Source: Verticillium longisporum
Lineage: Eukaryota; Ascomycota; Sordariomycetes; Glomerellales; Plectosphaerellaceae
Assembly: GCA_019188255.1 (NCBI GenBank)
Contig: JAETXT010000001.1
Span: 7,502,001 to 7,566,000 of the forward strand
Direction: 5' to 3'
DNA length: 64,000 bases
Shown here: one piece after another, positions 3,964 through 64,000 of the stretch
How positions within the stretch are numbered: the first letter of the stretch is position 1
Layout of the letters: each line of letters begins with the position of its first letter
Made by a program: the position numbers and the translations under genes
The notes under the pieces: generated by a model
The model's input: only the letters and a program-made list of their open reading frames with translations
Databases searched by the model: none
Told to the model about the DNA's origin: nothing

Positions 3964-6235
3964 ATGCCTGTCCTGGACGTCAGCGAGCTCAACGTCATCC
4001 TCGGCGTTTTAGGTACGGCTCTGGACCACGTTCACTTCCACTGGCTCTTAGTAGGGTATTGACCTAGCCATCTAGGCGGGTTTATCCTGTTATACGGCAT
4101 TATATCGACTAAGATAAAGGCGAAATGGTATCTTGGCGAAGCTTGTAAGTCACCATCCATGTCGCAATATGGCCATTCATCCCGACTTTCCGATCCTCGT
4201 CTCCCTGCCCACCACCACCTATTACTTCCCAGGCTGACACTCAGTTCCCAGTACCGGCCGTTATCGTCGGCGTCCTCCTCGGTCCTGTAGCAGCTAAGTT
4301 CATCGAGACTACAAAATGGGGGAGTGCGACGCCAGGCCAGACGAACGAAATCACGCTGGTATGTCGAACTCCACGCGTCGCCTCGAGCATGACACCGTGT
4401 TCATGCTGACGTCTGTTTGGAACAAAGGGCCTGATGAGGGTCATGATCGGTGTACAGCTCGTCATTGCCGGATTCCAGCTCCCGGCGAAATACCAGGTGC
4501 TAAGGTGGAAGGAGATGCTACTCTTGCTCGTTCCCGTCATGACCATGATGTGGCTTGCAACCACCATGTGCATATTGGCCACCGTACCTAAGTTGACTCT
4601 GCTGGCGGCCCTCATTATCGGCTCTTGTGTCACTTGTACAGACCCAATCCTATCGCAGGCTATCGCCAAGGGTCCTTTCGCAGATAAGTATGTCGCCCGC
4701 GACTTGCGCGAGATCATCTCATCTGAAGCCGGCGCCAACGACGGTTTTGGTTTCCCCTTTCTAATGTTGGCTACGTTCCTAATTCGTCACGCCGATGTAC
4801 CCGGCGCCGGACAGCACGGTGGCGAAAGCGCAGGCGCCGAGGGCGGGGTTGGTGAGAGTGCAGTGGGCGCGGTTGCTGCCGGTCAACCTCCTCATCTCCT
4901 CGCGCGTGCCGGAGTGACTGTTGCATCTCAGTCGCTGGGTCTCATGGGTCGCAGTGAAGAAGAAGTCGGCCGCCTCGGCGGCGGCGTGGGCATTGCCGTG
5001 CAAAATTGGGTTATCGAGACATGGCTCTATCAGATCTTTATGTCTATCGCCATCGGCGCCATTGTTGGCTTCGCCGCGCAGTTCGCCCTCAGGTTCGCCC
5101 TTCGAAAGTATGTTTTTATCACCTTTGATTACTCTCCACTAAGCCTTTTCGGCGATGACTGACCTGTTTCTTCCCTTTTAGGAAGTGGGTTGACTCGGAG
5201 AGCTATCTCCTGTACCCTACAGCCCTTGGTGTAAGTTTTGGAAACTGGAGAAATCTCCGTGAGATGGATCAAATTGATTAACATGCGCCTTTTCAGCTAT
5301 GGCTTCTCAGCATCTGCGGCCTGGTTGGTACCGACGATCTTCTCGCCTGCTTTGTTGCCGGCAACGCCCTGAATTGGGATGGCGCCTTCCTGGCCGAGAC
5401 GGAAGAGCGGCACGACGAGGTCAACTCTGTCATGGACGTCCTTCTTAACTTCGGCGGCTTCATGTACATTGGTGCCATTATGCCATGGGACCAGTTCAAC
5501 ACACCAGAAACGACTGGTCTGACCTGGGGCCGCCTTTTCGGACTCGGCTTCCTTGTCCTCGTTTTCCGGCGTATTCCGGCCATCTTCATCTCGTATAAGC
5601 TCCTGCCAAACGTCTGCAAGAACTGGAAAGAAGCCCTCTTCATGGGTTACTTTGGTCCTATCGGCGCCGGCGCGGTCTTCTACGTCGAGCACACCCGGCA
5701 CCTGTTTCCCGAACTCGGCCAGGGCGACACGGAAGAGACAGACCTCATACGCGTTATGATCCCGGTCGTGTACTGGCTGGTCCTGTTCTCCATTGTCGTC
5801 CATGGCTTGTCCATTCCGGGACTGAATCTTGCCTACAAGTTCTTCAACGTGGAGCCTATCCAGGACGACGCGGTCGAGATGCGTCGCAAGTCGGTCCACG
5901 TGGCTACACCCACCAACGCCATTGTCGGCGATCAAGAGACCTTTATCGCGTATAACCGCTTCTCGCGCCCAGTCTTCAATGTCGCGGACCTCCCCACTGT
6001 ACGGTCCAGGCGCCAGTCACTGGCCATCGAACAAGGCTATCCTCGGTCGATCTCGCTGTCCAGAATGTCAATGGCTAGGTCCAGATCTCGCGACGCGGGC
6101 CGTGACCGCGTCCCGGCTCCGGTTCCTGAGAAGGTTCCCGACGACAGCTACTCCCAGTGGTCCGGTTCTGATGCCAATGAAGGAGCGAATCGCGCGCCGC
6201 TTAAGCAAGGCCGCACCATTCAGTATGCTGCATAG
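3964..6235 (+). CDS. NHA-type plasma-membrane Na+(K+)/H+ antiporter
   Basis: Exons read by phase closure are 3964-4012, 4076-4144, 4252-4358, 4428-5107, 5182-5230 and 5297-6235, giving 630 aa. The product belongs to the fungal CPA1-type NHA antiporters, which exchange cytosolic Na+ or K+ for external H+. Family landmarks include an N-terminal hydrophobic segment (GGFILLYGIIS), the GEALPAVIVGVLLGP segment, the SCVTCTDPILSQAI stretch with the conserved Asp pair region, and GLVGTDDLLACFVAGNALNWD near residue 330. About 10 hydrophobic segments precede a hydrophilic C-terminal tail of about 150 residues rich in Arg and Ser. The loop after FLIRHADVPG (about residues 220-265) is Gly/Ala-rich. Start chosen because MPVLDVSELN matches the usual short N-terminus. 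Cation specificity cannot be read from the sequence. Confidence 0.9.
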
Positions 6236-7552
6236 GGCAATTGGTAGGTTGCCCTACAGTCGAAATAGCGGGCAGGTCCCGTGAAGATAAGCTGGCGGCA
6301 ATAGAAGGCCACCAAAATATTGTACGGTCATACTAGTTTGCGTTCAGTAGATGCAGCAAGGACACTGCGTAGTTGTTTCGTGGTTCAAGGAATCATCATG
6401 CGCCAGCTTGTTTCTTCCCTTCTCGCTACGTTTCAATCGACATGTGGTTTAAAGCGCGGAAAATTTAGCCTTTTCCCTCGGCCCCTGCCAATGTTTCCGA
6501 TTCGGACGCGTCCGCCCGCTTATTGTGGGAGAGGAGGCCTCCGGAGCTTCAACACTACTGCGGTCTCTGGACCGTACCTTATCTATATAATGGGTGAGAG
6601 ACTTTAGGCCCATTGCTGGGGGTCGGTACACAGACCAACCGGAGATCTCTGGGCTCTTCGTCACATGCATACTCGGCTCCAGCCCCCTAGCGATAGGTCG
6701 CATGCCGCCCGATTGAGTCATGGATATGCATCCGTTTCATGTTCACAAGGACAGTGGCGTACCCATTTACAGTGGGCCACGTGTCCACGAATACATCGCA
6801 CGGATGTGTCTGTTTGATCCTGTAAGAAGCTTCCTCGGATGGGACTGCCTCAGGAACTTCACTTATGCATGCAATAATCTACTCATTCTGGTCATCGGTC
6901 TGCCTTTGTTTGACACAATGTTCTACCTCAAAATCCCCGCTAAGAAGATATGTATCGGCTACTGTTATCATCGACTGCCAGGAGCTTGCCACAAAGACCA
7001 TGTGGCCGCCGGATATTGGCCGAACCCCCTCTCAAAAAACTTCTTGCCTCTTTCTTGATACCCCCGAGAAGTCACAGATGTCAAACGACTTTGGCAGTCA
7101 ACATCGTCTTGCGGACTTGGATTCTTTCTCTCATAACGATTAGTGATTCACACCTTCACCAAAACGGCTCCTCTACCGACTCGGCTTTCTATTTGTACCT
7201 GTGAATCTTATTTCTTGTTTCTTCTCCGATTCCTGACGACCCTGTACCATGATTGTTCAGGGCTCGTGCTTGGTCGAGTCTCACAACCAGCCCTGCAGCA
7301 CCAACATTCAATAACATCGGCTTTCTGGAATTTGAGTGCCCCGGCTTTCAACAGCAATCTGGCTGGTGAAGCCCAGCTTTTCCGCCATCAAAGATTGCAT
7401 TCAAGCGGCGCCACGCTTACAGCGTCTCATATCGCGTATCCTCATACACTGGGCAGGCCGCCCGAGCAATCTGAGAACACGCCATATCAACGACCCAGAG
7501 AGGAACATCGGCACTATTTGCGAAGTCAGGCCCCGAACGAACAAAAGTCGGC
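6236..7552. other. Intergenic region between NHA and HET genes
   Basis: Only short open frames without recognisable domains are present. No RNA gene, repeat or transposon end was recognised. A CACGTG hexamer occurs near 6778 in isolation. Confidence 0.4.
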
Positions 7553-9634
7553 TTGGGACAGGCCGTCATGGCCACGTCAATCAAGCGTACAATTCAAGCG
7601 GGCGCTCTGGCACTGAAGAGGCACAGGGATGGCCGTCACTTTAAGTATTCGCACTTGTCTATCCATCGAAGGCAGATCAGAATTCTGGTCCTCAGCCCGG
7701 GACGGTACAATGATGAGCTCAGGGCCGAGGTTCGCTTCGTGAACATTGACGATCCTCATCATCTGCGATATGAGGCCGTCTCGCACTCCTGCGCCGTCAC
7801 CACTGGCGATTTGAAGCCCATCAAGGTCGGCACTACCCGCCGCCTCTGGGTCCAGCCGACCATCGCGGTCATGCTGCAACACCTCCGATATCAAGACGAG
7901 AACCGCGCCCTATGGATCGATCAGCTATGCATCAATCAAGATGACCTCGTCGAGAAAAGCGCCCAGGCGTTGATGGTGACCGATGTCTTCAAGGCGGCTG
8001 ATCGCGCTGTTGTCTGGTTAGGCCCTGAAGGAGCAGACAGCAGCAACGCCTTCAGCCTACTAGAAGACCTCGGCTGGATGGTGGAATTTGACTTTGACAA
8101 TATGCGTATGCGACCCTCGGCGGCCGGGATTGACGAACCCTCCTGGGCAGATCCCAAGGAAGAGCTTCCGTACGATCAGGACGGCGTCTGGTCAGTGTAT
8201 GAGCTCATCTACCGCACCTGGTTTGGGCGTGTGAGCTCCCGCCAGGAGATCGCCGCCAAGCCCGCCAATGCCACAGTCGTCTGTGGCTTTAGGACGATCA
8301 GCTGGGACCTTTTGCGCACCGCACTGGGCTGCTTCGCGAACAAGCCGCGGGCCCATCTTGAATCACCTGATAGCCCAGTTGAGCTGCGCTTCGCTCGCAG
8401 ATACGACATGATTCTCCTGCTCTGCCAGACGAACAAGGTCTATGACCTTTGCACTCTGCTTGAGCAGTCACGCTTGTTTAGCTGTCCCAACCCTTTGGAT
8501 CGAATCTACTCCGTTCTGAGCTTGGCTGTCAACAGTGACCCGTTCATGGGCTTGACCCCGAATTACGAACTGAGCAAGACTGAGCTTTACCTGGACACGA
8601 CCTTCCGCCACATCAACTACACCAAGACGACAAACATCCTTGCCTCTTGCGAAGGAGCTTCGGTTTCCTTGGCCGCTAGCGAGATGCCCTCCTGGGTACC
8701 TGACTGGTCCAGGAAGAGGCGGGCGAACGCCATGCCATTGCACTTCGCCTCGAGCCATTCTGAAGCTCGGGTCCAGATCGAAAGTAACATCCTGCATGCG
8801 CACGCCATTCAGTGCGGAACAGTCAAATCTACGGTCGACCTCTTTTCCGACTACGTCCCCGTCCTCCGCGCTTTGGCTGCGATCCGTCGCTGCGCGCCGC
8901 TAGACGTCCTGACATCGTCCTACAACGGCCAGTGCTCCTTGCTCGAGGCGTACTGTGCCACTCTCGCCTGGGGTCTTTTCGACTGCCTGCACTCGCCGCC
9001 TGTCGAGACGTACCCGAACTCCGAGACGAGCACAGAGGCCCTTCGCCGTTTGCTGGCCACGCCAACGGACCCCGTGTCTCTCGGCAGTGCCGCGCAGGGT
9101 ACTTTGGATGTAGAATTATTGACGTATGTCACGCATGCCATGAGCTGCTGCAAAGGGCGGTCAGTGTTTAGTATGACCGGCAGCCTCATCGGTCTGGGCC
9201 CCAGAGACGTACAGTTAGGTGACCAAGTCTGGGTTCTCTTGGGCTGTGACGTGCCCCTGATCCTCCGTCCTTCGACATGTTCTTCGGGAGATACGATGTA
9301 TCGCATTGTAGGCGACTGCTATGTACACGGTCTGATGACAGGAGAGGCCATTCTTGGATCGTTGCCCTCCGATTGTCGACTGTTGCTGGTCGGCAATGAC
9401 GGCGTCAGACCTTCTGGCCCAACGGTGGTCAGGACTCTCACAGCGCGTCCAGCAGCTGATGAAAACGCGGAGCTACAGCCGAAACAGGAACTCGAGGACC
9501 CTCGTCTCGTGTCTCTCCGGACCAAGTTGAGAGAAGCTGATGTCGAAGCCACGTTCGAGACCACCGACGACCTTCTGGAGCCCTCTATTCTGCGAGCGGC
9601 CGGTATCAATGTCCAAGACATTCAACTTGTATAA
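7553..9634 (+). CDS. HET-domain (heterokaryon incompatibility) protein
   Basis: Single exon, 693 aa (688 aa if translation starts at the second Met at 7568). The HET domain spans roughly residues 60-250. YEAVSHSC replaces the usual YxALSYxWG start, and LWIDQLCINQDD and ADRAVVWLGPEG are classic HET blocks. In other fungi HET domains trigger regulated cell death in non-self recognition; the partner here is unknown. The C-terminal 400 residues have no recognisable domain, though the tail resembles the degenerate C-terminus common in large HET families. The divergence in the first HET block could weaken function. It stands between two transport genes without an obvious functional link; HET genes are often scattered through accessory fungal regions. 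Confidence 0.9.
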   Translation: MGQAVMATSIKRTIQAGALALKRHRDGRHFKYSHLSIHRRQIRILVLSPGRYNDELRAEVRFVNIDDPHHLRYEAVSHSCAVTTGDLKPIKVGTTRRLWVQPTIAVMLQHLRYQDENRALWIDQLCINQDDLVEKSAQALMVTDVFKAADRAVVWLGPEGADSSNAFSLLEDLGWMVEFDFDNMRMRPSAAGIDEPSWADPKEELPYDQDGVWSVYELIYRTWFGRVSSRQEIAAKPANATVVCGFRTISWDLLRTALGCFANKPRAHLESPDSPVELRFARRYDMILLLCQTNKVYDLCTLLEQSRLFSCPNPLDRIYSVLSLAVNSDPFMGLTPNYELSKTELYLDTTFRHINYTKTTNILASCEGASVSLAASEMPSWVPDWSRKRRANAMPLHFASSHSEARVQIESNILHAHAIQCGTVKSTVDLFSDYVPVLRALAAIRRCAPLDVLTSSYNGQCSLLEAYCATLAWGLFDCLHSPPVETYPNSETSTEALRRLLATPTDPVSLGSAAQGTLDVELLTYVTHAMSCCKGRSVFSMTGSLIGLGPRDVQLGDQVWVLLGCDVPLILRPSTCSSGDTMYRIVGDCYVHGLMTGEAILGSLPSDCRLLLVGNDGVRPSGPTVVRTLTARPAADENAELQPKQELEDPRLVSLRTKLREADVEATFETTDDLLEPSILRAAGINVQDIQLV

Positions 9635-10809: not shown

Positions 10810-13792
10810 TCAAGAGGTCGTGTGTGCCTTGACTAGTGGGAGCGTAGTCCTAGTCGGTTTTTCGCATTTCGATATGAGGAGCTTTGTCACCTTGTCGTCA
10901 TGAAGTTGGCTGTCTTCCTCCGTTGGTAGGGTGATGGCCCGGTCCAGGGCATAAGGCAGGCCGCGGTGGCGTCCCCGAATCATCATGAAACAAATAACTA
11001 CTTTGCCGAAGAGCGAAAAGTGACCGGACATCGATGTGGTGCCAAACGGACCGCCGAGAGATAGGCCAACGTTGCCGCTAGATTCTTGTCAGTGAAGGTG
11101 TGTGGTACGAACGGGCTTTAGGTGGGCACGGGCACGAACTATGCGGAGGTTACTTCGAAAATGACAGGGAAGACCGAGAATGACTAACAGCGTGTTAGAA
11201 TATTCTGTGCGTACAGGTAGGGCGGATACTCTTTTGTCCTCGCGCTTAGAGGTCGCGAAGGGCAGACCCACCGGCTCGTTCAAATCTGCAATACGCTTCG
11301 CCTCGGCGATACAGATGAGAAATGTTCCGAGGAATATATACCAGAGGTCGAAGCTGAGCTGGTTCCGTACATGATCGAGGACGTATGAAACGCCATCTGT
11401 CTCATCGACCCTCGTATCGTTGGAGGCCCAGATGCCCATTGACCGCTCTTCGTACGTGTTGGAAGCGCGGATGCTGATAGCGATTGGGAAAACAGCAATA
11501 TACATCATAGTAAGCAGGCTGAACTGCACTGCAGGGTGAACCTCCGCAAGGTTTAGAGTGGAGGTGCCCGTGTGGCGAGCGGAAGCGGCCTGGAAAAGAG
11601 CTGAGAGGATACGGGGGCCCAAGGGCAGATCCGTGACGGCAGGGCTATCGAGGTCCAAGACAATGATAAGCAAGACATCGATGGAGTTCAATAAGACAAC
11701 CGTGCCGAAAAGAATCCAGGTTGGGCGGCTAGGAAACAGGAGCGTGTAACAGCGTCGAGGATGATCTAGAAGGAACTGTAACGTTTCCTTCGTCTGGGAC
11801 TTCTTCGGCACTAGCTGTGACGTCGTCCAGATGCAGAGTCGCAAGAAAACGGGATAGCAGGTATTGCCAGCAAAGGCCATAAATGTCATGATCAGCATTG
11901 GCCAAGTAGCATCCTTGAACGTCGCCATGGAATCCGGGGTGAGAGTAAAGCCAAGATTGTTGGCCATGGTTTGTGCCGAGTACAATGCCCTACACAAATT
12001 CTGATCGTCAATACAACAAGTTCGACAAAATATCACACATGCGTGTGGCCCAGAGACGGCGTCTGCAGGAATGATATTACGCACCACCATGTCCTTCCAA
12101 CACCACACTCGGCCAGCCAGCCTGTATATTTGGATGGAGCATTATGGATCCAGGGGAGCAGGCAGATCACGCCCAAGAGATGGAGTCCGACGAAGTAGCC
12201 TATACATGAATCCAACATTAGCCATGATATCAACTAAAGGAGCAGTTGCTGACCAGCAGAAGACTTACCAAACACGAATTTGAGAAGCATCTTCAGAGCG
12301 CGGTATTCAACGCCACCGAGAAACTCACGATCTTCTTCGGTAAGGTTGCAGAATTGAGAGTTACGACCAACGGTGGCATGGCGAGAGAGCTTGGGGAGTT
12401 GCAGACCATCGGGCTTAGTTTGAAAGCGCGACCGAGAGCGAAGGCCAAGGCCAGTCGTGATACCAGGTCGTACGTTTCCTAAAACCAATATAGACGCAGC
12501 CGCCTTCTCGATGGATCTAGCGGCTTGCAAAATAGAGCCCTCAACGTGGGCATTGACGCGGCTTGAGCGTCCCGTATTAATCCGTCGCACCGGCTGGATA
12601 GCGTCCGTTTCTGATACTGATTGTCAACATCACTGCGGAATACTTTCCCGAGACTTAGTCAAGCCTGTAAAGAAGGCCTACCTACCTTCACTTGTGTTAG
12701 CATTATCATAAACATGGCTGCTGCTCAAGGTGCCGATCGCGGTAATAGGTTGTCCTAGGGTCAGACTGTGTCAGTGAGGAATCAATTGATAGCGCACATG
12801 GGAGTTGAGGCTGGGACGTTGTTATTTACCACGATCAAACCCTTTGGGAGACGGAATATGGAGTGTAGGATCGTCCTTGTGACGTAAAAGCTCAGCCTGA
12901 GCGCCTTCTTGATCAATGGAGATGGTAGGCGCTCTCTTGACCCTCTGTAATAATACGCCGTCGATCGGGTACATGGCCGGAGCGCCCTGTTGGTCCAAGT
13001 GACCGCCCTCGCCATCATTGATAGATTCGGAGGCTCTTCGAGGCTGACCAAGAGTCCGCTCTTTCTCAAGCAGAGCCCGACGCGTATCCCTTTGCACGCC
13101 TAATACAGCTCATTAATCCAAAGGCAGGCCAGAAGCTGTGCACAACTTGGAGGGAAGACGCACCAGTTTCTTTTAAATGCAGGCGAAACCAGTATAAGCG
13201 AACGGGGACGACGATCGCATTGACGAACATAAGGTTCGTGACGATCGGAATGATGTAGAGGAAGACCTGCTGATACGTTTCGAGGTCCTTGACGTCGATA
13301 CTGTCGGATCGTGTGTATTAGCTGGAGCTTGCCGGGCATATTCTGCACTTGGAGGTGAGTATCACGTATTCAGACCAGACTCAGTCGAGCCACTGCAGCC
13401 GAAGAAGAAGACATCAACGGCCGCCAAGTTGCCGTAGGGAGACAGGACGGGGAAAGCAAGCAGACTGCAGAAAATGATCCAGGCATCTGTAAGCCTCGAC
13501 GGTCAGTTGCCAGCCTCGTCGGCCAGTTGCCAGCCTCGTCGGCAAGCTTATCGTGAGACCGCTTACAGTGAACCCTGATGAAACTTAAGTGAGGCATCCG
13601 CATATTAGTGAGCGGCAGGAACTTAACCGAAAAGTGAGAAATGGGCGGCGCTGAGAATGGAAGAAAACGAAAGCTCTTGTTGATCTGGAAGGCATTTGAG
13701 AAGAGAGACCCGGCGGGACGATGAGGTATTAAGATGACGAACTCTTGGTAGGTGGGGCTTCCGCGCGGTCTCTTGGCTTGATGACTTGCCAA
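10810..13792 (-). CDS. TRK-family high-affinity K+ transporter
   Basis: Ten exons on the minus strand close in phase: 13567-13792, 13366-13486, 13164-13300, 12830-13099, 12686-12754, 12269-12616, 12085-12199, 11272-11989, 11140-11183, 10810-11077 (771 aa). The four pore-loop regions of TRK/HKT transporters are visible: STESGLNT, LGFTLTPDSM, SARHTGTSTLNLAEVHP and TSAYGNVGLSLG. A long hydrophilic loop lies between the first and second membrane-pore units, as in yeast Trk1. The first exon is the least certain: SFIRVHY just before intron 1 is conserved, but translation may start at 13792 or at the Met at 13603. The first intron contains a 20-bp direct repeat. Role: K+ uptake at the plasma membrane, setting the K+/Na+ ratio opposite the ENA pump. 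It diverges from the ENA gene across a 1.2 kb shared upstream region. Confidence 0.9.
13504..13543. repeat. 20-bp direct repeat, two copies, inside TRK intron 1
   Basis: The unit CAGTTGCCAGCCTCGTCGGC occurs twice head to tail (13504-13523 and 13524-13543). A third, imperfect similarity precedes it. The repeat lies within the intron at 13487-13566. Confidence 0.85.
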
Positions 13793-14985
13793 GGCTCCAA
13801 CTCAAGTATCGGGTTGCCCGACTGGACACAACACGCTGAGAACATCTGGCCGTGTCCTTGCTGCCTTGTTTGCCTTCCACTGCATTGCCAGACTGGTCTA
13901 GGCACTAATTAATCCGCATATTCCATTCAGTGGCACCCTTGGGTGGAGCTTGGATCCCGCACACCGCAACTTTGCACAGCATGCAACCCTGAATTAGTCG
14001 TGGTTGAGTAGTGCTTTTCTCACCGAAAGGCTGCTCATCGCCCCATCAAGCTATTATGGGACCTGGCTATGCCACCTATACCAAGCACACAGAGGACGCC
14101 GACGAGGGAGGATGTCAGTGCTGGTGTCATTGGACGCAGCAGCAACGCCCGCACAGAGTGCTTTCTGTTTCATACATTGGCCAAAGCTGAGGTCTATACA
14201 TAGGAGAGTCTTCTCTTGGCAAAGTAACAAATGTGTGTGATGGTTTTGGGATACCACAAGTACGATGCACCAGTGTTTTGGTTGGGCGAACAGACTCCCC
14301 AGGGAGGACAAGTGGAGGGGCCAAGAAGCCAAGGGTACCTCTGTATAGATTTCCACTTGATCACGTGTAGCCGATCGACCAGTCCTAGCAGAGCAGATTT
14401 GGGGATTTAGGGGGCTTGCACGAGTAATGCGAAGTATCACATGGAGACTGATTACTCCGGTTCTTGGCCTCTCCAATCAGTTACCGAGAATCGTCCGCGT
14501 AACGGCCAAGCGTTGTGGCACGCTAAAGACGCTTGGGTCGCGCCTGCTTGCGAAGGGGATGAAGAAAGTGGGGTGGCGGGGAGAAACTTGCCAGGGAGGC
14601 AATTGGCGGCAAGGGTGAACGCCTTTATTTGCTTCAACGCAAGCCCGTCCTTCAAAGCGAACTTCCTTCTTCTTCTTCACCCTCTTCAACGTCACCGGTC
14701 CATTGGCATCTAGTTTGTCAGCTTGCATCAGACTACGACCACCACTCAACTTTTCAACAGCACAACCACCTGTTCTGAAGTCCATGCTCGTTTCCTCCAT
14801 CCTGTCCCTCCTCCTCATCCGCCATCCCCCAGGTTCCACTCCGTATCTGATGGAGTCCACAACTTGCAAGAATATCACCGTCATCTTCGTCCAGGGCATC
14901 TGCCTCGGCCGGCTCTCCACAGAATCACAATAACACAACCTAAAGGTCTTTCTCTTCTTTACAGAAAACCTCTCTCAGACTCGCC
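13793..14985. promoter_or_regulatory. Shared TRK/ENA upstream region with clustered PacC-type hexamers
   Basis: This 1.2 kb lies between the divergent TRK and ENA genes. Seven matches to the PacC/Rim101 core GCCARG (either strand) were counted: 14062-14067, 14215-14220, 14320-14325, 14328-14333, 14463-14468, 14505-14510 and 14590-14595. About one would be expected by chance in this length at even base composition. The right-hand part before 14985 is rich in C/T, as is common in fungal 5' leaders. Confidence 0.5.
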
Positions 14986-17900
14986 ATGGCGAAAAAAAAC
15001 ACAAACAGTCCGAGCGACGGCCATGTGAGCGGCCAGTCCAACCGCCCAATGTCGCTACCAGCCCACAGCCTCTCCCTACAGCAAGTCGTTGACGAGCTTA
15101 GCGCCAGCCATGCTGACGGCCTGACTGCCACTGAGGCCGCCTTGCGCCTGCAAACACATGGCAAGAATGAACTTGGTGAGGCGGAGAGCGTTTCGCCACT
15201 TAAGATCATCATCGCCCAGGTTGCCAACGCGATGACCATGGTCCTAATACTCGCCATGGCCGTCAGCTACGGCATTGGCTCCTACATTGAAGGCGCGGTC
15301 GTCACCTTTGTCATCGTGCTCAACGTCGTCGTCGGCTTCTTCCAGGAGTATTCCGCCGAGAAAACCATGGACTCTCTGCGGTCCTTAAGCTCCCCCACTG
15401 CTCGAGCCATCCGTGACGGCGAGTCTGTGGTTGTTCCCTCAGGTGAAATCGTCCCGGGCGACCTCGTCGAGCTCAAGATGGGCGCTACCATTCCCGCCGA
15501 TGTCAGGTGAGCAGTCCCTCTCCAACTCTTCTACATGACTAACCAAATCAGAGTTTTCGAGGCCGTTAACTTTGAAACCGACGAGGCCCTCCTCACTGGC
15601 GAATCGCTCCCGGTCCGCAAAACCGAGAACGCCACCTTCCCCGAGAAGACAGGCCCCGGCGACCGGCTCAACGTCGCCTATAGCTCCTCCAACGTGACCA
15701 AGGGCCGCGCGAAAGGTATCGTCTTCGCTACGGGCGTCTATACGGAAATCGGCGCCATCGCCTCGCAGCTACGTCAGAAGGATTCCCGCCGTCGTCCCGT
15801 CAAGCGCAAGGCCGATGGCTCCGCGAAGCCCCATCGCTATCTCGAAGCCTACACCCTGACCATGACTGACGCCATGGGCCGCTTCTTGGGGGTTAACGTC
15901 GGCACTCCCCTGCAGCAGAAGCTCTCGAAACTGGCTATGCTTTTGTTCGGGATCGCCATTGTGTGCGCCATTATCGTCCTGGCGGCCAACGAGTTCTCGT
16001 CTGAGCAGGAAGTCATTATTTATGCTGTGGCTACCGGATTGTCGATGATCCCAGCCAGTCTGGTTGTCGTGCTTACTATCACCATGGCGGCTGGTACGAA
16101 GCGCATGGTTAAGCGCAACGTTATTGTCAGGAACCTCAAGTCTCTGGAAGCCCTCGGCGCGGTGACCGACATTTGCTCCGACAAAACTGGCACCCTGACG
16201 CAGGGCAAGATGGTGGCCCGCGGCGCATGGCTACCTGGCAAGGGTACATACACCGTGGAGAACTCGACGGCGCCGTTCGACCCGACCGCTGGTGACGTGC
16301 GCTTCCACCCTGATTCGCCTCGCCGCATCGACTTCAAGTCAGGTGGCGCGGCGTGTGGCACTATTGGCAAGCCGGAGGACCTGATGAGGGACAGCAAGAA
16401 CAGCCTTGGTGACTTTCTGCAGGTCGCGTCCCTTGCCAACCTGGCGGCAATCACGCAAAAAGAAGACGGGTGGCATGCGCGCGGTGACCCCACAGAGATC
16501 GCGATCCAGGTGTTTAGCTCGCGTTTCGGCTGGAACCGCCTCGACCGGACCTCTGGCGAGATGGCCGAGTGGGCAGACGTGGCGGAGTTGCCCTTCGATT
16601 CGGATGTCAAGCGCATGTCGGTGGTGATGAAAGACAACAGCACGGGGAAGCTCTATGCGTACACTAAAGGTGCCGTCGAGCGCGTCATCCAGATATGCAC
16701 ACAATATGCCCGAAGTGACAATGGCCAGTTGGTACCCGTAACGCACGAATTCCGCGAGGAGGTCCTGCGAAACATGGAGGCATTGGCCGGGCTTGGACTC
16801 CGTGTTCTCGCATTGGCCAGTAAGCCTTTCGAAAGCACCCTGCAAAAAGGGGACGAGGTTGACCGCAAGCTTGTCGAGTGCGACTTGGTGTTTCGTGGCC
16901 TGGTCGGACTCTACGACCCACCCCGTCCTGAATCGGGTCCCGCCGTTCGTCAATGCCATGAGGCAGGCATCTCAGTGCACATGCTGACAGGCGATCACCC
17001 TGAGACGGCCAAAGCCATTGCCATTGAGGTCGGCATCCTCCCGTCCCGAATGGAGCGTATCGCCCGGAATGTCGCAGACGCCATGGTCATGACGGCCTCG
17101 CAGTTTGATGCCTTATCCGACGAACAAATCGATCAGCTACCTGTACTACCTCTGGTCGTGGCGCGGTGTGCGCCCAGCACCAAGGTCCGCATGATTGACG
17201 CGCTTCACAGGCGAAAGAGATTCGTCGCAATGGTATGTCAATGCCTGTCCATGAAAACTGGTGAAAGACTAACACATCGTAGACAGGTGATGGTGTCAAT
17301 GATTCCCCTTCACTGCGCCGCGCTGATGTCGGTATCGCCATGGGCCAGGCTGGTTCTGATGTTGCTAAGGTATGCGTCCCCTTACGCTATGCTCACCCCC
17401 TCCTGACTCTTTAGGACGCCTCGGACATTGTCTTGACTGACGATAACTTTGCCTCAATTGTGGCCGCCATCGAGGAGGGTCGCCGTATCTTTGACAATAT
17501 CCAGAAATTTATTCTGCACGTCCTCTCGGAAAACGTCGCCCAGGCAGGCACTCTTCTCGTGGGTCTCGCGTTCAAGGACGCCCGCGGACTGTCTGTCTTT
17601 CCCCTGGCCCCCGTGCAGATCATTTGGATCATCATGGCGACCTCAGGCATGCCCGATATGGGTCTGGGCTTCGAGCGGGCTGTCCCGGATATCCTTCGTC
17701 GCCCGCCGCAGTCTCTGAAGTCGGGCGTCTTTACCATCGAGTTTCTCGTCGACATGGTGGTATATGGCCTCTGGATCACGGCTCTTTGTCTCGCCAGCTT
17801 CTGCCTCGTCGTCTTCGGCTTCGGCAATGGTGATCTTGGCGAGTTCTGCAATGATGATTACAGCGAGCGGTGCAATACGGTGTTCCGAGCGCGCGCCACG

Positions 17901-30989: not shown

Positions 30990-31139
30990 CTGTGAGTCAA
31001 GATGCTCGTCTTTCTTCGAGTCCTCGCCTCTTCGTACTCCTTCTCTATCGCCTCCACTATCTCTGTCGACGTCCGAATGTGCAGACCCGCCAGCACAGAT
31101 GCATCAGCCATGCGGCCTGCCCCTAATGGTACGACAGAA

Positions 31140-32957
31140 TCAGTTGAACGAAGGCGAACTGAGGCTCATGGCGGTGAGCACGCCAGCCAGCGTGGCCACA
31201 CACGGAAGCGTGAGGACCCAGCCAATGAAGATGAACCCGAGTTGCTTCCAGTTGGTGGCACCAAAGTCCAAGTTCATCAAGGAAACACCAACCACGGCAC
31301 CGGTCAGTGTTTGGGTAGTGCTCACGGGCAACCCTAGCCGACTGGCGAGCAAGACCGTAATGGCCGCTCCAAGCTCCATGGCGTAGCCCCTGGTTGGGCT
31401 TAGTTGCGTGATTTTGTTGCCGAGCGCCTTGACAATGTGGTGACCCATGAACCAAAAACCTGCACCAAGGAGGAGACCGGCAATGGCAAGGATCCAGACG
31501 GGCGTAGGGTTCTCCTCCCCAACTTTGCCCGAGTTGTACGTCTCATAGACAGCCACCCAAGGGCCGACAGCGTTTGCAACGTCGTTGGAGCCGTGAGAGA
31601 TAGACATCATGACTGCACTAGCAACTTGAGCGTATGTCCAAAGATGTTCTATGCGATTGTCGTAGCGCGGGGCCCTGCCATGGACGTTCTCGAGATGGAG
31701 GGAGTCGTGAATGACGCAGTCACGCGTGACGCCCTGAAGCAGAAAGTACAGGATAAGGCTCTTCATCCTGCGTGGGTGGTAGAAAGGGAGATGGGCCGTA
31801 GGAGCGAGGAAGCGTTCTTCGGGCTCCGGCTTGCGCGGCGCGCGGCGCACGGCGGGCTCTTCGGGCTGTCGCTCGATATCTCGCGTGACTTGGCCTTCTG
31901 TTTCGACGTCCTTAGGGCCTTGAGAGTTGGGGAGGTTCGTCTCTGCATCCGTAGCCGAGGCTTTCTGACTGCTGGCTGACGGCTGGGTTCCAGTGGCAGT
32001 CTCCTTGTTGTGGGCGCTCTCGTAGTGGTCGACGAGCATGGTCGTCTTTCCGGGGAAATACAGGGGCGGGTTCTCTCTCCACAATAGAGGTCCGAGAGGA
32101 AGATGCCAAGGACGCATACGATCGTCCTCGAGGACGACAACACGGTGGAAGTATGGCATGAAGAAGAGATAAGAGAGGGCGAGGACACCGAAGAAGGCCC
32201 CAAACACGATGCCGCAAGCCACGCCAACGCCAAGTTCTTCCAGACTTGGGGCGCCAGGTGCCTCAATGGTAATGAAGAGAGCGAGGATGGCGCCGGTAAA
32301 GGCAAGGTAGAACGGAATAGCCCTGAGTGCCTTTTTGAAGGCGTCTTTCCGCTCAAGTACGCAAAACTTAAGGGTCCCAAACAAGATCGCAGAGAAGGCG
32401 GCGGCAATCAATGGGGAGATGAGCCAAGAGGCGGCAATCTGGGAGACACTGCCTTTCTTCCACTCCCAAGTGACGGCGGACTGGGCGCCGATACCAGCGC
32501 CGACGAGGGCGCCGACGATAGTATGTGTAGTGGATACCGGGAAGCCGATCTTCGTTGCGACCAAGAGCCAGGTGGCAGAGGCGATCTCGGCACTACCCAT
32601 AGCGACGAGAAGGGTAGCAGGGTTGTCCCGGAAGCGGTCTAAGCCAATGATGCCGTTTTTGATTGTGTTGGTGACGCGAGAGCCGAGCACAACGGCGCCG
32701 AGGAATTCTGCAATGACAGAGATGACACCGGCCTGGGCCATGGTGAGGGTTCGCGCGGCCACAGAGGTGGCGAACGCGTTGGCAACGTCGTTGGCGCCAT
32801 TGCCGAAGGCGCTCAGGCAGAACGCGACGGTGGTGATGGCGAGAATCCACCAGTATTGCGGCAAAGCTGGCGACATGGTGGCTTTGTCGATCGAGTTATA
32901 GGGCACGATGGGTTCCGAACACAAAGAGTCAGATGATGATTTTGAAAGTCCAGTCAT
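31140..32957 (-). CDS. PHO89/PHO-4-type sodium:phosphate symporter (PiT, SLC20)
   Basis: Single exon, 605 aa (start at 32957) or 578 aa if the Met at 32876 (MSPALPQYWW) is used; the latter resembles the family N-terminus better. Two PiT signature repeats are present: GNGANDVANAFATSVAART near the N-terminus and SHGSNDVANAVGPW in the C-terminal half. Each holds the conserved ND-VAN core that binds phosphate and sodium. TM segments flank a central hydrophilic loop of about 150 residues. Role: high-affinity Na+-driven phosphate uptake at neutral to alkaline pH, as known for yeast Pho89 and Neurospora PHO-4. The promoter region to the right (minus strand) holds an E-box overlapping a calcineurin-type element. 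The neighbour at the 3' side is a Pho4-like bHLH exon. Confidence 0.94.
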   Translation of the reverse strand: MTGLSKSSSDSLCSEPIVPYNSIDKATMSPALPQYWWILAITTVAFCLSAFGNGANDVANAFATSVAARTLTMAQAGVISVIAEFLGAVVLGSRVTNTIKNGIIGLDRFRDNPATLLVAMGSAEIASATWLLVATKIGFPVSTTHTIVGALVGAGIGAQSAVTWEWKKGSVSQIAASWLISPLIAAAFSAILFGTLKFCVLERKDAFKKALRAIPFYLAFTGAILALFITIEAPGAPSLEELGVGVACGIVFGAFFGVLALSYLFFMPYFHRVVVLEDDRMRPWHLPLGPLLWRENPPLYFPGKTTMLVDHYESAHNKETATGTQPSASSQKASATDAETNLPNSQGPKDVETEGQVTRDIERQPEEPAVRRAPRKPEPEERFLAPTAHLPFYHPRRMKSLILYFLLQGVTRDCVIHDSLHLENVHGRAPRYDNRIEHLWTYAQVASAVMMSISHGSNDVANAVGPWVAVYETYNSGKVGEENPTPVWILAIAGLLLGAGFWFMGHHIVKALGNKITQLSPTRGYAMELGAAITVLLASRLGLPVSTTQTLTGAVVGVSLMNLDFGATNWKQLGFIFIGWVLTLPCVATLAGVLTAMSLSSPSFN

Positions 32958-36294: not shown

Positions 36295-37078
36295 TCAGCT
36301 CTCCGTACTCTCTGACCGTTGCTCTCTGAAGCGATGTACTTCGTCCTGCAAGCATAGGATTCGTTCGATTGCAGCCTCAACAATGGCAGCCTTGGAGCTT
36401 GTACTGTTGTCTCCCGACGCTGTTGCGGTTGTCACGTCGTTCAAATTGTCAACATTTCTCTCTAGGCTGGAACAGCATTCCTGCGAGATCAGAGCTGCTA
36501 GCCGGTCGAGAGCGAGCCTCAGACGGCGCCTGCGGCCTTGCTCCGCTGCCTGGCGACTGTTACGCTGTGAAGCAAGAGTCTCCGATACTTTAAGTCGGAG
36601 TGCTCGTCAGTGCCGATCCCTCTACTGATCGAGAGGCGGCCGTACCTGTTTGTTCCAGTGTAGTGTGTAAGGCTGCATTTGAAGGTTTTGGCTCTATGGG
36701 CCGTGTTGCGATCATCCGCTCCGACCGTTGCAAGCCAGACTTCCTCTGTAATGATTGTCGCCCAGGCACTTTGTTCTTTTTTGAAACCCGAATACCGCGT
36801 ATGATTTGGTCGTAATTCTTCTGAGTAGACCTTTCGGGACGTTTACGACTTGCCTTTGGGAGAAATACGGGTGCTGATCGATGGTCGGGGGAAGGCGTGG
36901 ACGATTCAAATGCCTCTGAGTTGATCATTTCCGAAATAGAAAGGCATGCTTTCGGTATGTTGGTGTTACCGACTCCCTTGCGAATTGCGGCACTGGACGA
37001 CATTGTCTTCGAAATGGGTTTGCGTTGGGTTGACGAATTATTGACACTTTGTGACAAGAATTCTTTGGGTGAAGGCAA
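36295..37078 (-). CDS. Pho4/NUC-1-like bHLH transcription factor
   Basis: Two exons, 36646-37078 and 36295-36587, with a 58-bp intron having a clean branch site (CACTGAC); 241 aa. The N-terminal 145 residues are basic and Ser-rich with no known domain. The bHLH domain occupies residues about 155-225: basic region NSRQAAEQGRRRRLRLALDRL, a loop with an acidic/Ser/Thr-rich insertion, and helix 2 SKAAIVEAAIERILCLQDEV. The AEQGRR basic region and SKAAxVExAIE helix point to the Pho4/NUC-1 phosphate-regulator group. The family's usual His in the basic region appears as Arg/Asn-Ser here. The protein is far shorter than NUC-1, so it would be a small paralogue. Its truncated relative lies 5.5 kb away next to the PHO89-type gene. 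Confidence 0.75.
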
Positions 37079-37326
37079 CGACCGATCTGAATGCGAGATG
37101 CTTGCTTAAATAAGGGGACCTATAGATCAGAAGTTCGTGATTGGATGCTTGCCAGGTTTTGTGACATCCTGTGGCTGTGTGTCATGAGCGAATGATTGTT
37201 CGGTAGTGACATGCAAGCCTTCCGAGGGATTTAGTGACTAATCAAACTGCAAGACGTGGCTGGGCTGGATACCTGATCCACGCCAGCTTGGCAATCCGAC
37301 CCGCATGACGTGACGTACCGGGACTT

Positions 37327-39680
37327 CATCTCTTTCGAGCAGGACTTTGGCCTCAGTACTTATTAGGATCGACACAAAAAAGGCAGAATAATGCAGCAGC
37401 CAATTGGAAACACCGCCACAGACCCACAGTACATACAAATTAGCTGTGGTACCGATCCCAACAATGCTGGGTATTCCAGAGAGGCACATCGCTAGTCTCG
37501 CACACAAATCGCGTTTTTGGAGCCCATGAATTGCCTGAAATCGCTCCCAACGCCTATCTTTTGGGCGAGCTGATAGCACGTCCGGAACAGGCATAGCAGC
37601 GCAGTTGTGGGCACTTGCCTACGCGTTTGTGCTCCCTCAGAGGCACTCTGGTGGACGCCCCATTCGTTTTCGACTTCTGCCGGCCTCCTTGTGCTTATCG
37701 AATATCGAGGAATAAAGCAGCCGAATCCATTCACTTTCAGAAGAGGCCCTTTATAGAAAATACGGCCCGGAAGCTCTCTCTGCAGAAGGAAAGTATTCGC
37801 CATAACCGCTCCTAACAGGAAGCCGTATATTAAGGCCGGCCAGCCTCCTCGGCGCGCGCGGCGTTCCTACTCGTTGTTCGCGCGTAGTTGGTCATGTTTA
37901 ATAACCCCTCCCTTTTGAACGTTATATTGGGCTGTAAATTGAGGGTGCGGCAGGTCCTTCCGGTATTTAAATGCTCATGTGATCGTTTGAAAGGGCTCTC
38001 TTGCTATCTTTGCGCAGGTGGCAGACTTTTGGGGCAATCGTCGTTCCATAGGCGGTTCAGGCTCTCGACCGCTATAGAGGGTATTCTGGAAAGCTGTAAA
38101 AGCAAGGTCCTTCCATAGAAACTGCTGTATCTGACCGTCAGCGATAGTTACTGTAGGTAGCATACCCTGGGGCACCTTGTCCCCCTTATTGGCAGCGCGT
38201 TTATCAGGGAGCTGTTGGACAAGGCCTGCGTTAGGGTGGCAGGTGCCCGTGGCGGCGAAGCCCTCTGAGCGCAGTTGTTATAGGAGGGCAAGGCTTGTGA
38301 AGAGGTTATCGATAATACCGTGGTATCGGGGGCCCTGTGGGCTGCGAGGCAGTCGCCGCAGGACGTCCGGCACAACCCGTTGGGTCTTGTTCAAGCCTCT
38401 CGTCGTGATATCGCGAGACCTGCCTACGAACCCTACCATTCCCTCGTCAATTATAACAGTCCAGGGGGAATACCTAATAGGTACGAGACGTATCCTATAC
38501 ATCGTTAACCAGGAGGCCAGGCGGTCAAAGGTAGCAGAATCTGCGCGCGTATCGAGGTCCTCGGGGTCCCAATGTTACGACCTGGCAGCTTCCGAAGGGG
38601 GAACACTGTCAGAGGGTTGGGGTTGCTGTTTGCAGAAGCTTAGGTTGTGACTCTGAGACGATGTGGTGTCGTAAGGCGTTGCGCACTCGTTACAATGAAT
38701 ACAAGGTAAGACTTAGATTGATCACTGTCGTGAGAAAGAATGTATCTACAAGTCCAGAATGTCCGTCCTTATATACCTGCCATCCTGTCCTTGTTGTGTT
38801 AGGTGGTGAGCTCATGTTGGATGGCTCACTGGTTAGTTGTTGGTGATCCATGATGTTAGGATCACGGTGTGTTATCCCGTGAGCCATTCCCTGGCTCACT
38901 GCGGCGTCCTTGGTGAGCCCGACGACTCACCCTTTATGTCTGAGTGAGCCATCACGTGATTTGCCAGGTGGGCCCGATTCTTATCTTATCGCGCTCCCTG
39001 ATCGCGGGGTCGTCGATTCGCGGCCGCCCTGCTTCCTTGGTTGTTACACCCAAATGCGCAAGCGGCGATATAGGGCCTGGAAGCGCTCCCACGATATCCA
39101 CTGCGTGAAGCAGTGCCTCGAAGTGTATTCGGAGGTGGACCAATAGTCTCGGAGGCGTGGCTCGACCGTCACTCTCATGAAGGAGGATACCTAAGAACAG
39201 GTATAATTCCGCTACTGTTGTTGGGTACCAGTCGTTTGCAGTTGTGCGTTGCCAGCAGGCGTTTCGTTGACGAATTCAACCCACTGCGCTATTAAGGCAG
39301 GAGGCACAAATGCTTCGAAGAGCTCTAAAGGCATCGGCGGCAGGCCCTTCGGGAAGTGACGCCAGAAGTTCGGAACAGCAAGGGGCTCGAAATCTGTAGC
39401 TGTAGGAGTACCGGTGAGGCTTCAGGGCGCCTTGTACCCATATCCGAGCTCAGCGGTACTTGACTCCATTGTGAGGCTCAAAAACGGTCGATATCGTGAT
39501 ATTCTGGCGGTTTGGCGGTGGTTCCGTTGCGTGGATATCGCTGACGTAGGTGCAGTCTGCTACTTGTGGTGAGGTATTTCAGGCGGGAGGCTACATACCT
39601 CGGGAAAATCTAGACTAACCCTATTAGGAAAGCGGTCTGGCCAGAAAGTAATGAGGCTAAAGTTCTGCTCTTAAGGGATG
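37327..39680 (-). mobile_element. Decayed piggyBac copy, split by a solo LTR
   Basis: Thirty-five-base degenerate inverted repeats lie at 37327-37361 and 39646-39680 (both end types still start CATC/..GATG). On the minus strand the interior matches the intact element at 21.3 kb from its 5' leader to its transposase end, with many substitutions and indels. Recognisable pieces include IIDEGMVGFVGRSRDITT (around 38.45 kb), the IIDNLFTS block (around 38.3 kb) and MANTFLLQRELPGRI (around 37.8 kb). Frameshifts and stops leave no usable transposase. A 476-bp LTR interrupts the N-terminal coding part. Confidence 0.85.
38573..39048 (-). mobile_element. Solo LTR of a retrotransposon, nested in piggyBac
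   Basis: A 476-bp sequence with TG..CA ends (minus-strand start TGTAACAACC, end GGTCGTAACA) is flanked by the 5-bp direct repeat CCCAA at 38568-38572 and 39049-39053. Removing it and one repeat joins piggyBac-homologous sequence on both sides. A TATATAA box lies about mid-element in the minus orientation. No internal retrotransposon genes are present, so it is a solo LTR left by recombination. Confidence 0.85.
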
Positions 39681-40512
39681 AACCTCCAGTGTGAAGTGAC
39701 GGTCAATCGAGAATCCAGTTGATAGTGCCAACGAGCTACATTATACCTAGTGGTGGTAAAGATTACAGTCCCGGAACTGAGAAGACGATACTGCTGACGC
39801 CAGTCAGCACCAGGATAGAATGTCAAAGGAAGCGGCCATGACAAAAGAACGGCGTGACCCGTCGCGGCTTGACATGCGCTGCGGCGTTCGCCTGGACTGA
39901 CTACAACGTCCAGAACAAGAAGTTGGCGCACGTGACGTACGAGCTTCAAGAGACGAGGACACGTATTTCGACGGGCAGGTAGTGCGACCCGTACAGCCTC
40001 TACGTGCAGTTGTCGCGGAGTCGGTCTCTAGGAGGCATCATACTCCTGTCCAAGGTCCGTGAGAGAGATTTCGTCGATAATCGGATGCCTCCTGGCGGCA
40101 CAGGATTGGCTAGAGAAGCTGAGCGATCGCACTTTACCACTTCCGAAGAAAAAGGGGTCAAAGTGGAGCAGCTGCTGTAATTAGCCCAAGAACAATCCAA
40201 ATGGGACAAGCGCCTTTTGGTGCGAGTCGTTCGGTTCAGTTCATTGTCACTGCCTCACTCTGATAGGTCCGCAAGACCCAGCACGACAAGTAGGCCAATG
40301 ACTGGTCGTCCCCACGTGCCCTGCGGGGAGAGCAACGATTGGTGGAGTCGCCCCATTTGGAGGTATTGACGCAGATGAGCGAGTGGGTCAGTCAAGCGAG
40401 CGGACATCGGGATCGGTTTAAATGTTCGTGGCAACCTTCGAGCATTCTCACAAAAGTCCCAATTCTGCTGCCAACGACAAGAGCATCAACATATTCCTTC
40501 ACTATCACCAAG
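39681..40512. other. Upstream region of the ChrA-type gene
   Basis: No coding domain recognised. A CACGTG hexamer lies near 40313. Confidence 0.4.
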
Positions 40513-42263
40513 ATGGCCATTCGACGTTGGAGCGGCTGGCAGCCTGTGAACCTCGGGGGCAAATTGTGGAACGCCATCAGCACTAATTATCATCTAGGGT
40601 TTACCTCATTTGGTGGTCCACCAGTGCATTTCAAGATTGTGAGTTGCGGCTCCTTCACTGAATTGTGTTCCATCGCAACGTATACTCCGTCTTTGAACAG
40701 AACGCCTGCTGACGAACTCATTAACTGTCTTTAGTTCCATGACAAATTCGTCCAGAAGCTGCAATGGATCGATGCGCAAGTAGTAAGTACAAGGTTAAAC
40801 TGGGATGATTGCGGAAACGTAGCAACGCTGATTTAGTCTGTAGTACCAAGAGTTATTTAGTGTATGCCAGGCATTCTCCGGTCCTGGTAGCACCAAAATG
40901 CATTACTGTATCAACCTCATCCACGACGGTTTCCTCCCTGCCTTACTAGGCTTTTTCATCTGGAGGTACGGCAACTAGTTATACCCATGTGGGGAAAAAG
41001 GAAGAAAAAAGGGCTAACTTGCGTCTCAGTTTACCCGGCGCCCTCGGAATGTACGGCCTCTCTATCGGCGTCTCTAACATTGGAGACTCCCTCCCAGGAC
41101 CCGTGTATGCGCTCCTCTCCGGCCTCAACGCTTCGACCGTCGGCATCATCGCAGTCGCCGCCGTCCAACTATCAGAGAAAGCCATCACCGATAGGATGAC
41201 CCACATACTCGTCTTCCTCGGAGGCGCGGCCGGCATTTTATACAACGCACTGTGGTACTTTCCCTTTTTGATGTTCCTGGCGGGCATCGCAACCGTCGTC
41301 CATGACTATCGCTGGCTTCACGGCCCAATGAAGGCCGCCTTGGCGGTTGTGAAGAACCCCAGGAGGCGACGCCCGGCAGAAGTAACGGAATCCGTCGAGC
41401 TTTGGCAGGCGCAGTCTGGCAACGAGGAGAACACTGTTACCAACACTGCTACTCATCCCGGTGCTACTCGGAATGAGGCAGAGACGCGCGCAAGCCGAGG
41501 TAACGATACCGAAACTCTTCCGATTTCTGAGAACGAGCGTCGAGAGGCCGAGCCGGAACCCCGCGTCGTCCCACCAGAACGCACCCTCAATTTCTCCTGG
41601 ACCTTCGGCCTCGGCATAATCGTCTTCTTCCTCGTTACCTTCATCGTCATCATGGTCCTCCGCGGCGTGTTGCCTGTCAAGTCGCTACTCTTCAGCTTCT
41701 TTGCAAACATGTACCTCGCAGGAACTATCATCTTCGGCGGAGGCCCCGTCGTCATTCCCCTGCTTCGCGAATACGTCGTCGCCGAAGACTGGGTTAGCCC
41801 GCGAGACTTCCTCATCGGCCTCGCCATCCAGCAAAGCTTCCCCGGGCCTAACTTCAACTTTGCCGTATACCTCGGCGCCCTGACTGCGATCAACGGTGGT
41901 TACAACTCGGCTGCCGGGGCAGCGCTCGGATTCATTGGCATCTTTGCCCCGGGCCTTATTACCGTTCATGGCACTATGGGTATATGGAGTGCTATCCGCG
42001 GCCTGAGGTGGGTAAAGTCGCTCCTTAGAGGCGTTAACGCTGGTGCCGTCGGGCTCATTTATACTGCGGTCTACCGCCTGTGGCAAATCGGTTACATAGA
42101 CGAAAGTTTCCAGCAGGGCACAAGTCTCGCGGAGGAGCCATGGTGGGTTGTCGTGACGGCATCGAGCTTTGTCTTCGGCTACTCCTTTGGCGTAAGCCCT
42201 CCGGTTGCCATCGTCATGGGTGCTGTGTTGGGACTTGTTTGGTATGCAGTTGTCAGGGCTTAA
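40513..42263 (+). CDS. ChrA-type (CHR family) chromate/anion transporter, long two-domain form
   Basis: Four exons: 40513-40638, 40735-40782, 40844-40965, 41030-42263; phases close and give 509 aa. The N-terminal CHR domain begins LGFTSFGGPPVHFKI and contains CQAFSGPGSTKMHYCIN; the second domain repeats the pattern with AGTIIFGGGPVVIPLLREY and IQQSFPGPNFNFAVYLGA. These FGGP and PGP motifs define the CHR family. A hydrophilic linker rich in Glu/Thr (about residues 220-285) joins the two halves. Bacterial and fungal members export chromate or transport sulfate-like anions; the natural substrate here is unknown. An upstream in-frame Met at 40339 exists but adds no recognisable sequence. The gene converges on the phosphatase gene with only 27 bp between stops. 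Confidence 0.9.
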
Positions 42264-42290
42264 TTCAATGCAAGATGAAGAATGATATTT

Positions 42291-63907: not shown

Positions 63908-64000
63908 GTCAACAAATTTACCATGTAGTCAAGTAATGTGATCCAAGCTTACCACCAAAGTCTCAAGCTTCTGTATTGCTAGCACTGCCTGCGACATTTC

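Follow-up and report, generated by a model that had tools for sequence, protein, structure and literature searches.

Transporter families and a second PacC gene within 38 kb

Do the ion-transporter genes that lie close together on contig JAETXT010000001.1 (C1) of Verticillium longisporum form a working unit, or have they come together by happenstance? Known fungal gene clusters are mostly for specialised metabolism and nutrient use. We address the question for C1:7,502,001-7,566,000, here called the window (the whole stretch of 64,000 nucleotides analysed), in a searched genome of 72,013,526 bases and 16 contigs (GCA_019188255.1). Within 38 kb, the window holds seven transporter families, NHA, TRK, ENA, SLC6, SLC1, PHO89 and ChrA, and a second PacC gene, here named pacC2. 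All seven families had been named in a preliminary description of this DNA, and Pfam bears out each of them, the ENA also being backed by its identity to a core copy. We see about an even chance that the locus is an accessory ion-homeostasis island, likely working as an alkaline-pH and sodium response unit led by the extra PacC. Gene calls derive from Pfam scans and a purpose-written simple splice-aware gene finder; all models are predictions, those of TRK and NHA being the least certain. The features on which this reading depends are as follows.

3964..6078, plus strand: NHA-type Na+/H+ antiporter; 7 exons, 556 amino acids predicted; Pfam Na_H_Exchanger
10810..13597, minus strand: TRK K+ transporter; Pfam TrkH, E = 2.4e-71; several exons predicted, of which the inner ones and the 5' end are uncertain
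13598..14985, unstranded: divergent TRK/ENA promoter; nine GCCARG sites at 13772, 13788, 14062, 14215, 14320, 14328, 14463, 14505 and 14590
14986..18347, plus strand: ENA-type P-type ATPase, by Pfam; protein 88% identical to the core copies on C9
18982..21035, minus strand: SLC6 (SNF) symporter, 662 amino acids; Pfam SNF, E = 3e-85
24350..25860, minus strand: SLC1 (SDF) symporter, 483 amino acids; Pfam SDF, E = 1.6e-75; one of at least three genomic SDF loci
27975..29876, minus strand: pacC2, 587 amino acids; predicted exons 29673-29876, 29360-29618 and 27975-29275
30109..30497, minus strand: pacC2 promoter block, kept with core pacC; PacC sites at 30200, 30223, 30336, 30357 and 30374
31140..32876, minus strand: PHO89-type Na+/phosphate symporter, 578 amino acids, single exon; Pfam PHO4, E = 6e-120
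40513..42263, plus strand: ChrA-type transporter; Pfam Chromate_transp, E = 3.4e-42

For the antiporter, Na_H_Exchanger exons lie within 4410-6232, and the spliced model matches the family at E = 1.3e-30. The P-type ATPase shows the Pfam architecture E1-E2_ATPase, Cation_ATPase, Hydrolase, and from these domains and its identity to the core paralog we take it to be an ENA.

To place this grouping against chance, exon matches from whole-genome searches were merged into 53 loci (TRK 7, NHX 16, SNF 7, SDF 3, PiT 12, ChrA 5, PacC 3); ENA was excluded because its loci are known from a DNA search alone. When these loci were placed uniformly at random 20,000 times, the richest 40-kb stretch held two families in 14,122 runs, one in 5,645, three in 232 and four in a single run, whereas the window has all seven tested families (six transporter families and pacC) in 40 kb. 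The families were picked after the cluster had been seen, and placement was uniform while real genes are unevenly spaced, so that these odds are overstated; the excess over chance is large even with weaker true odds. It bears on the chief alternative, a passive accretion in which plastic, transposon-rich DNA captured duplicated genes (for instance old antiporter-TRK and ENA segments) along with their inherited promoters, the common theme being happenstance. We hold accretion to be possible but rather doubtful; random capture of six transporter families and pacC in 40 kb is hard to achieve.

A smaller grouping recurs outside the window. At four of the seven TRK loci, an NHX antiporter lies no more than 7.1 kb away, a limit set so that the window pair qualifies: the window itself, C1:4,992,423-4,997,374, its homeolog C13:777,145-782,095, and C1:5,843,064-5,847,519. 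The random placements gave one such locus in 429 runs, two in 6, and never more, and the recurrence of the pair speaks against accretion. Dispersal of the families in relatives had been named beforehand as a counter-indication to a module. Within this genome the core paralogs are indeed mostly scattered, yet the antiporter-TRK adjacency is present at three further loci, two of them homeologs of each other. An additional TRK locus without a homeolog (C1:7,302,992-7,304,074) lies about 106 kb to the left of a DUF3435 recombinase that points its way, and is a candidate for another accessory TRK.

The PacC2 protein and its promoter

The predicted PacC2 protein aligns from end to end with a 599-residue Verticillium PacC, at 73% identity. 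The latter entry bears a wrong proteasome name; we take it as the core PacC because it has long identical stretches in common with an entry named V. dahliae pacC/RIM101. In the C2H2 zinc-finger region, 81 of 91 residues equal those of the core protein, and both YPXL motifs are kept (YPNL at 428, YPIL at 580). Near the signalling protease box, two YPXL/I motifs are described as being bound by PalA, a binding that pH-regulated cleavage requires (PMC10301932). C2H2 zinc fingers, recognised by Pfam, and the alignment together uphold the earlier assignment of this gene to the PacC family. When PacC2 was placed in a tree of 19 sequences (the query and 18 of 120 listed matches, chosen by hand), it paired with a protein of V. 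dahliae VdLs.17, to which it is about 99% identical, and this pair is sister to core Verticillium PacC (support 99/96). From its sequence, pacC2 is an extra copy of pacC, full-length as predicted. A truncated accessory PacC of the Fusarium type was considered and rejected, as PacC2 aligns through to the end of the core protein.

Upstream of the gene, the promoter block aligns with the stretch upstream of core pacC. The five GCCARG sites common to both promoters agree at 30 of 30 bases; in the rest of the block 233 of 359 bases agree, and random sets of five six-mers drawn within the block were all identical in 8 of 100,000 cases. GCCARG is the PacC core motif (PMC10455529), and judged by sequence these shared sites of the two pacC copies are the strongest regulatory evidence at the locus. 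That pacC2 was copied along with its own promoter is a point in favour of accretion.

The divergent TRK-ENA stretch holds nine such sites. When 264 kb were covered by 5,254 overlapping 1,348-bp windows, 14 of these held at least eight GCCARG sites, 13 of them at TRK/ENA. In Penicillium expansum, the ENA promoters carry 6, 5 and 2 GCCARG sites and are PacC-bound, the genes being alkaline-induced; the window ENA is likewise a multi-GCCARG gene, and the portion of that account available to us names no clustering with pacC or other transporters (PMC10455529). Between the window ENA and its core paralogs, about 100 bases beside the start and a short, weak match align upstream, so that no footprint comparable to that of pacC2 is obtainable there. 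PacC control of ENA and TRK, possibly inherited, is plausible from these promoters.

Across eight cluster promoters, 27 GCCARG sites in 7,152 bp amount to 3.78/kb. This is more than the local average of 1.69/kb (P = 1.5e-4), and more than the 2.33/kb averaged over 17 core-type loci (P = 0.012), of which some overlap or are homeologs. A shuffle test counted 38 sites against 14.8 expected, with shared promoters double-counted and the ENA start set 40 bases too early; the nine sites between TRK and ENA hold with the corrected start. Upstream stretches of other paralogs range from 0 to 8.3 sites per kb, and the predicted genes of the right flank, only five in number and thus of little weight, have a mean of 1.4 sites per 1 kb.

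Constraint on the transporters and their origins

The predicted transporter frames are open. Ratios of non-synonymous to synonymous substitution (dN/dS) against core paralogs, computable for ENA, SNF, TRK and NHA, range from 0.04 to 0.21: 0.04 for ENA, 0.07 for TRK (one pair, the other being saturated), 0.14 for NHA and 0.21 for SLC6. The ENA protein is held at 88% identity to its core paralogs despite a dS of 1.3-1.4, and the NHA protein is 53-71% identical to two core paralogs. Such constraint argues against accretion, whereas the apparent ancestry of the genes argues for it. Among the matches listed, the PHO89 protein is closest to those of Sodiomyces alkalinus (83%), Stachybotrys chartarum (77%) and Emericellopsis atlantica (75%); with the copies of V. 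albo-atrum and V. longisporum it shares 66%. A tree built from 37 of 120 listed matches groups it with S. alkalinus, Emericellopsis and a protein from a metagenome (98/97), and the enclosing clade (100/99) leaves out the Verticillium core copies. Sodiomyces species are obligate alkaliphiles (PMC10301932). SLC6, in a tree of the query and 21 of 120 matches, pairs with V. albo-atrum (95% identity, support 100/99), with Colletotrichum next; for both trees, sequences were chosen by hand.

Judged by these sequences, the origins of the cluster are mixed: PHO89 is Sodiomyces-like, pacC2 Verticillium-like, and SLC6 groups with V. albo-atrum and Colletotrichum. A single Sodiomyces-like donor for the whole cluster was considered and set aside. 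PHO89 would fit, but PacC2 is sister to Verticillium PacC, SLC6 has its nearest match in V. albo-atrum, followed by Colletotrichum, and ENA is 88% identical to its own core paralog. The mixture of PHO89, PacC2, SLC6 and ENA sources favours accretion.

The D3 parent of V. longisporum is presumably V. dahliae. The PHO89 entry and the VdLs.17 PacC entry give the same longest contig of 557,237 bp, which suggests that the two genes, the only members so placed, are probably linked as neighbours in V. dahliae also; the PHO89 protein cluster at 90% identity comprises two contigs and one member sequence. At both core SLC1 loci (C11:2,551,168-2,589,671 and C13:1,497,685-1,514,980), a PHO4-family gene lies 16-37 kb off, its frame interrupted, perhaps by introns, which echoes the SLC1-PHO89 neighbourhood of the window. 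SDF and PHO4-family loci are thereby no more than 37 kb apart at all three SDF loci, although two of these are homeologs and the distances are long.

The bHLH copies and a possible phosphate role

Between and beside the transporters lie further features:

7568..9634, plus strand: HET-domain gene, between NHA and TRK; Pfam HET, E = 6.7e-16
21317..23355, plus strand: DDE_Tnp_1_7 transposon copy 1; Pfam E = 2.9e-44; perfect 36-bp terminal inverted repeats
30700..30996, minus strand: bHLH copy a, partial; open stretch without a start codon
33770..34853, plus strand: open reading frame (ORF) labelled arrestin-like, family unconfirmed; two predicted exons
36298..37003, minus strand: bHLH copy b; Pfam HLH, E = 2e-7; domain exon 36298-36606 and a likely upstream exon
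37327..39681, minus strand: transposon copy 2, inverted and degenerate; 73-77% identical to copy 1

From left to right, the order is thus LINE reverse transcriptase, NHA, HET-domain gene, TRK, ENA, SLC6, transposon, SLC1, pacC2, bHLH copy a, PHO89, arrestin-labelled ORF, bHLH copy b, second transposon copy, ChrA, histidine phosphatase and bZIP. The bZIP gene, at 45,229-45,570 (Pfam E = 4.9e-11), is followed by a weak kinase match at 51,658-52,095, under the Pfam cut-off. Extra bZIP and HOG1-like genes have been reported from the lineage-specific (LS) regions of V. dahliae (PMC3145793).

The two bHLH loci of the preliminary description both exist, one on each side of PHO89. Copy b has a Pfam match, whereas copy a, whose DNA matches that of copy b at 76% across 320 bases, looks partial, being an open stretch of 99 amino acids without a start codon. 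Their position suggests another possibility, namely an island for nutrients, in which Na+-driven uptake of phosphate and organic solutes would be under a Pho4-like bHLH factor, and ENA, NHA and TRK would only offset the sodium influx. The presence of three importers from Na+-coupled families in 14 kb and the bHLH gene and fragment flanking PHO89 are consistent with it, as is the motif CACGTG, found 8 times against 2.9 expected in the 1-kb upstream stretches of 11 genes (shared promoters double-counted). In the same 1-kb upstream stretches, a looser Pho4 consensus shows no clear excess (17 against 10.6, P = 0.083). The bHLH copies are small, their likeness to Pho4 is putative, and it is PacC that is the complete regulator and has the footprint in its promoter. 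We therefore regard a phosphate-led island as unlikely.

Accessory DNA, transposons and recombinases

Many gene families of this genome occur as homeologous pairs on two contigs. DNA searches were made with 3,900-20,000 and 23,400-43,300 of the window (1-3,899 and 20,001-23,399 being left out), and no homeologous copy of either piece was found among the matches listed. The paralogs of cluster DNA among these matches are mostly 63-81% identical, with a few short matches to 88%. A simple homeologous copy is thus rejected, in comparison with the core DNA at 53,654-60,044, which has copies of 99% and 91%. From these comparisons, the locus is single-copy, transposon-rich accessory DNA, and its members are old paralogs of scattered core genes. 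The block of SLC1, pacC2, PHO89 and bHLH (23.4-37.3 kb) is flanked by the two inverted transposon copies. The preliminary description had noted neither these copies nor the HET gene that separates NHA from TRK, nor that the locus is accessory, transposon-rich DNA and stands alone while the genome is otherwise duplicated.

The surroundings are equally plastic. The LINE-type reverse transcriptase occupies the left edge (1-2,591), and the 1 kb to the left of the window (C1:7,501,001-7,502,000) recurs twice, at 100% identity, in the 200 kb that follow the window on its right. A 480-bp repeat within the degenerate transposon (38,571-39,050) is present in at least 35 copies at 99-100% on many contigs, with 39 of 292 candidates scored; several copies are paired about 6.5 kb apart, and the repeat looks like a solo long terminal repeat. 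Towards the right, a core segment of 6.4 kb (53,654-60,044; POL32/Cdc27-like, RING-SAP and Snf7-domain genes) lies inside the accessory DNA. It has three copies in the genome, the window segment being a 99% copy of C11:900,207-906,605 and the other homeolog, on C11, 91%. The adjacent 60,043-63,990 is 100% identical to C1:5,602,407-5,606,357 up to the end of the searched piece, and further matches at the same offset (C1:7,585,301 and C1:5,625,670) suggest that a segment of 24 kb or more was duplicated recently. Both the adjoining segmental duplications and the interspersed HET gene, LINE and transposon copies are points in favour of accretion.

The captains of Starship elements, which stand at one end and point inwards, belong to the DUF3435 recombinases; the account of the Verticillium Starships names them tyrosine recombinases (PMC12289983). 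One of them, at C1:7612932-7614205 (minus strand), lies 47 kb past the window and points at the cluster, from which it is separated by the core-derived segment and the segmental duplication; more are found at 7.410 and 7.686 Mb of C1. Three others, at C4:6,225, C4:379,931 and C4:770,671, have identical scores, hinting at recent duplications. Verticillium Starships (Se1h1, Se1h2, Se1h3, En3h1) sit in plastic regions, as does the window, and the cargo of some is reported to include transporter orthologs and an ortholog of a pH-signalling regulator; no ion-homeostasis cluster is described in the part of that account available (PMC12289983).

Weighing a pH and sodium response unit

Several results weigh against the reading of the locus as a response unit led by PacC2. 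The density of GCCARG sites in the cluster promoters is not above that of the core ENA upstream stretches (3.65/kb, P = 0.46), so that PacC control may have been inherited gene by gene, as accretion would have it; after this control with core-paralog upstream stretches, site density was set aside as proof of co-regulation. SLC6 and the phosphatase have no GCCARG site and ChrA has one, and Crz1-type sites are not enriched in the upstream stretches (3 against 3.4 expected, shared promoters double-counted). The long branch of PacC2 (0.33) could mean relaxed function. One of the two bHLH copies is partial, and the label of the arrestin-like ORF was not confirmed: it has no Pfam match at E<=1, its second exon no PDB sequence match at E<=10, and its single-sequence fold a mean pLDDT of 32. 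No Starship borders were found, the left flank being covered to 1 kb.

Ten of the eleven elements named in the preliminary description are thus present at 3.96-42.26 kb, the arrestin-like label being the one left unconfirmed. The regulated ion, pH and phosphate module that it had proposed fares unevenly: clustering, constraint and a full-length PacC with conserved promoter sites speak for it, the PacC-site density, no higher than that of core ENA, does not, and its phosphate-regulator part comes down to one bHLH gene and a fragment. Cluster-wide co-regulation would be a further, inferred step.

If the locus works as an alkaline-pH and sodium response unit, the Pal pathway would cleave PacC2 at high pH as it does core PacC, and the activated protein would induce ENA, TRK and pacC2 itself, PacC2 and/or core PacC binding the divergent ENA/TRK promoter. 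ENA and NHA would then export Na+ while TRK restored K+, and PHO89, SLC6 and SLC1, Na+-coupled by family, could draw on the Na+ gradient to take in phosphate and organic solutes under alkaline conditions, where the proton gradient is weak. The island would have been put together in plastic Verticillium DNA from genes of differing origins, and may move with Starship-type elements. A stronger version, which we put forward tentatively and with more doubt than belief, is that of a mobile, self-regulating alkaline-sodium island, with a full sodium economy and its own pH-gated PacC, genes partly typical of soda-lake fungi, and antiporter-TRK pairs as a recurrent building block.

Known systems and significance

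Accessory DNA that combines ion transporters with a copy of pacC is, in outline, a known kind of locus. In Fusarium oxysporum NRRL 32931, pacC_a lies beside a K+/Na+ efflux P-type ATPase (FOYG_15914/FOYG_15913), so that there, as in the window, an extra pacC adjoins an ENA-type ATPase in transposon-rich accessory DNA; the accessory chromosomes of this species are described as enriched in cation-transport genes (PMC6994591). The extra Fusarium PacCs are reported to lack the C-terminus, whereas PacC2 is predicted to be full-length, and to the pairing of pacC and ATPase given there the window adds TRK, NHA, PHO89, SLC6, SLC1 and ChrA (PMC6994591). The LS regions of V. dahliae resemble the window as transposon-rich accessory DNA with extra bZIP factors and duplicated gene groups, but the main text of that paper mentions no potassium, phosphate, PacC or transporter (PMC3145793). 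The full combination of window genes was not found described in open-licence PMC full texts, in keeping with the preliminary description, which knew of no such cluster. What is new here is the breadth of the cluster, together with a PacC2 that keeps its full predicted length and both YPXL motifs, and a pacC2 promoter in which the PacC sites are conserved.

If the locus is indeed an ion-homeostasis island, ion homeostasis would be packaged as accessory DNA that can be gained or lost at once, and the fungus could likely activate its defence against sodium and its uptake of nutrients together. This would matter for understanding how wilt fungi deal with xylem sap and with soils that are alkaline or saline. 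Together with the pacC-ENA precedent in Fusarium, the locus makes it a testable proposal that adaptation to pH and cations has been packaged repeatedly in accessory DNA.

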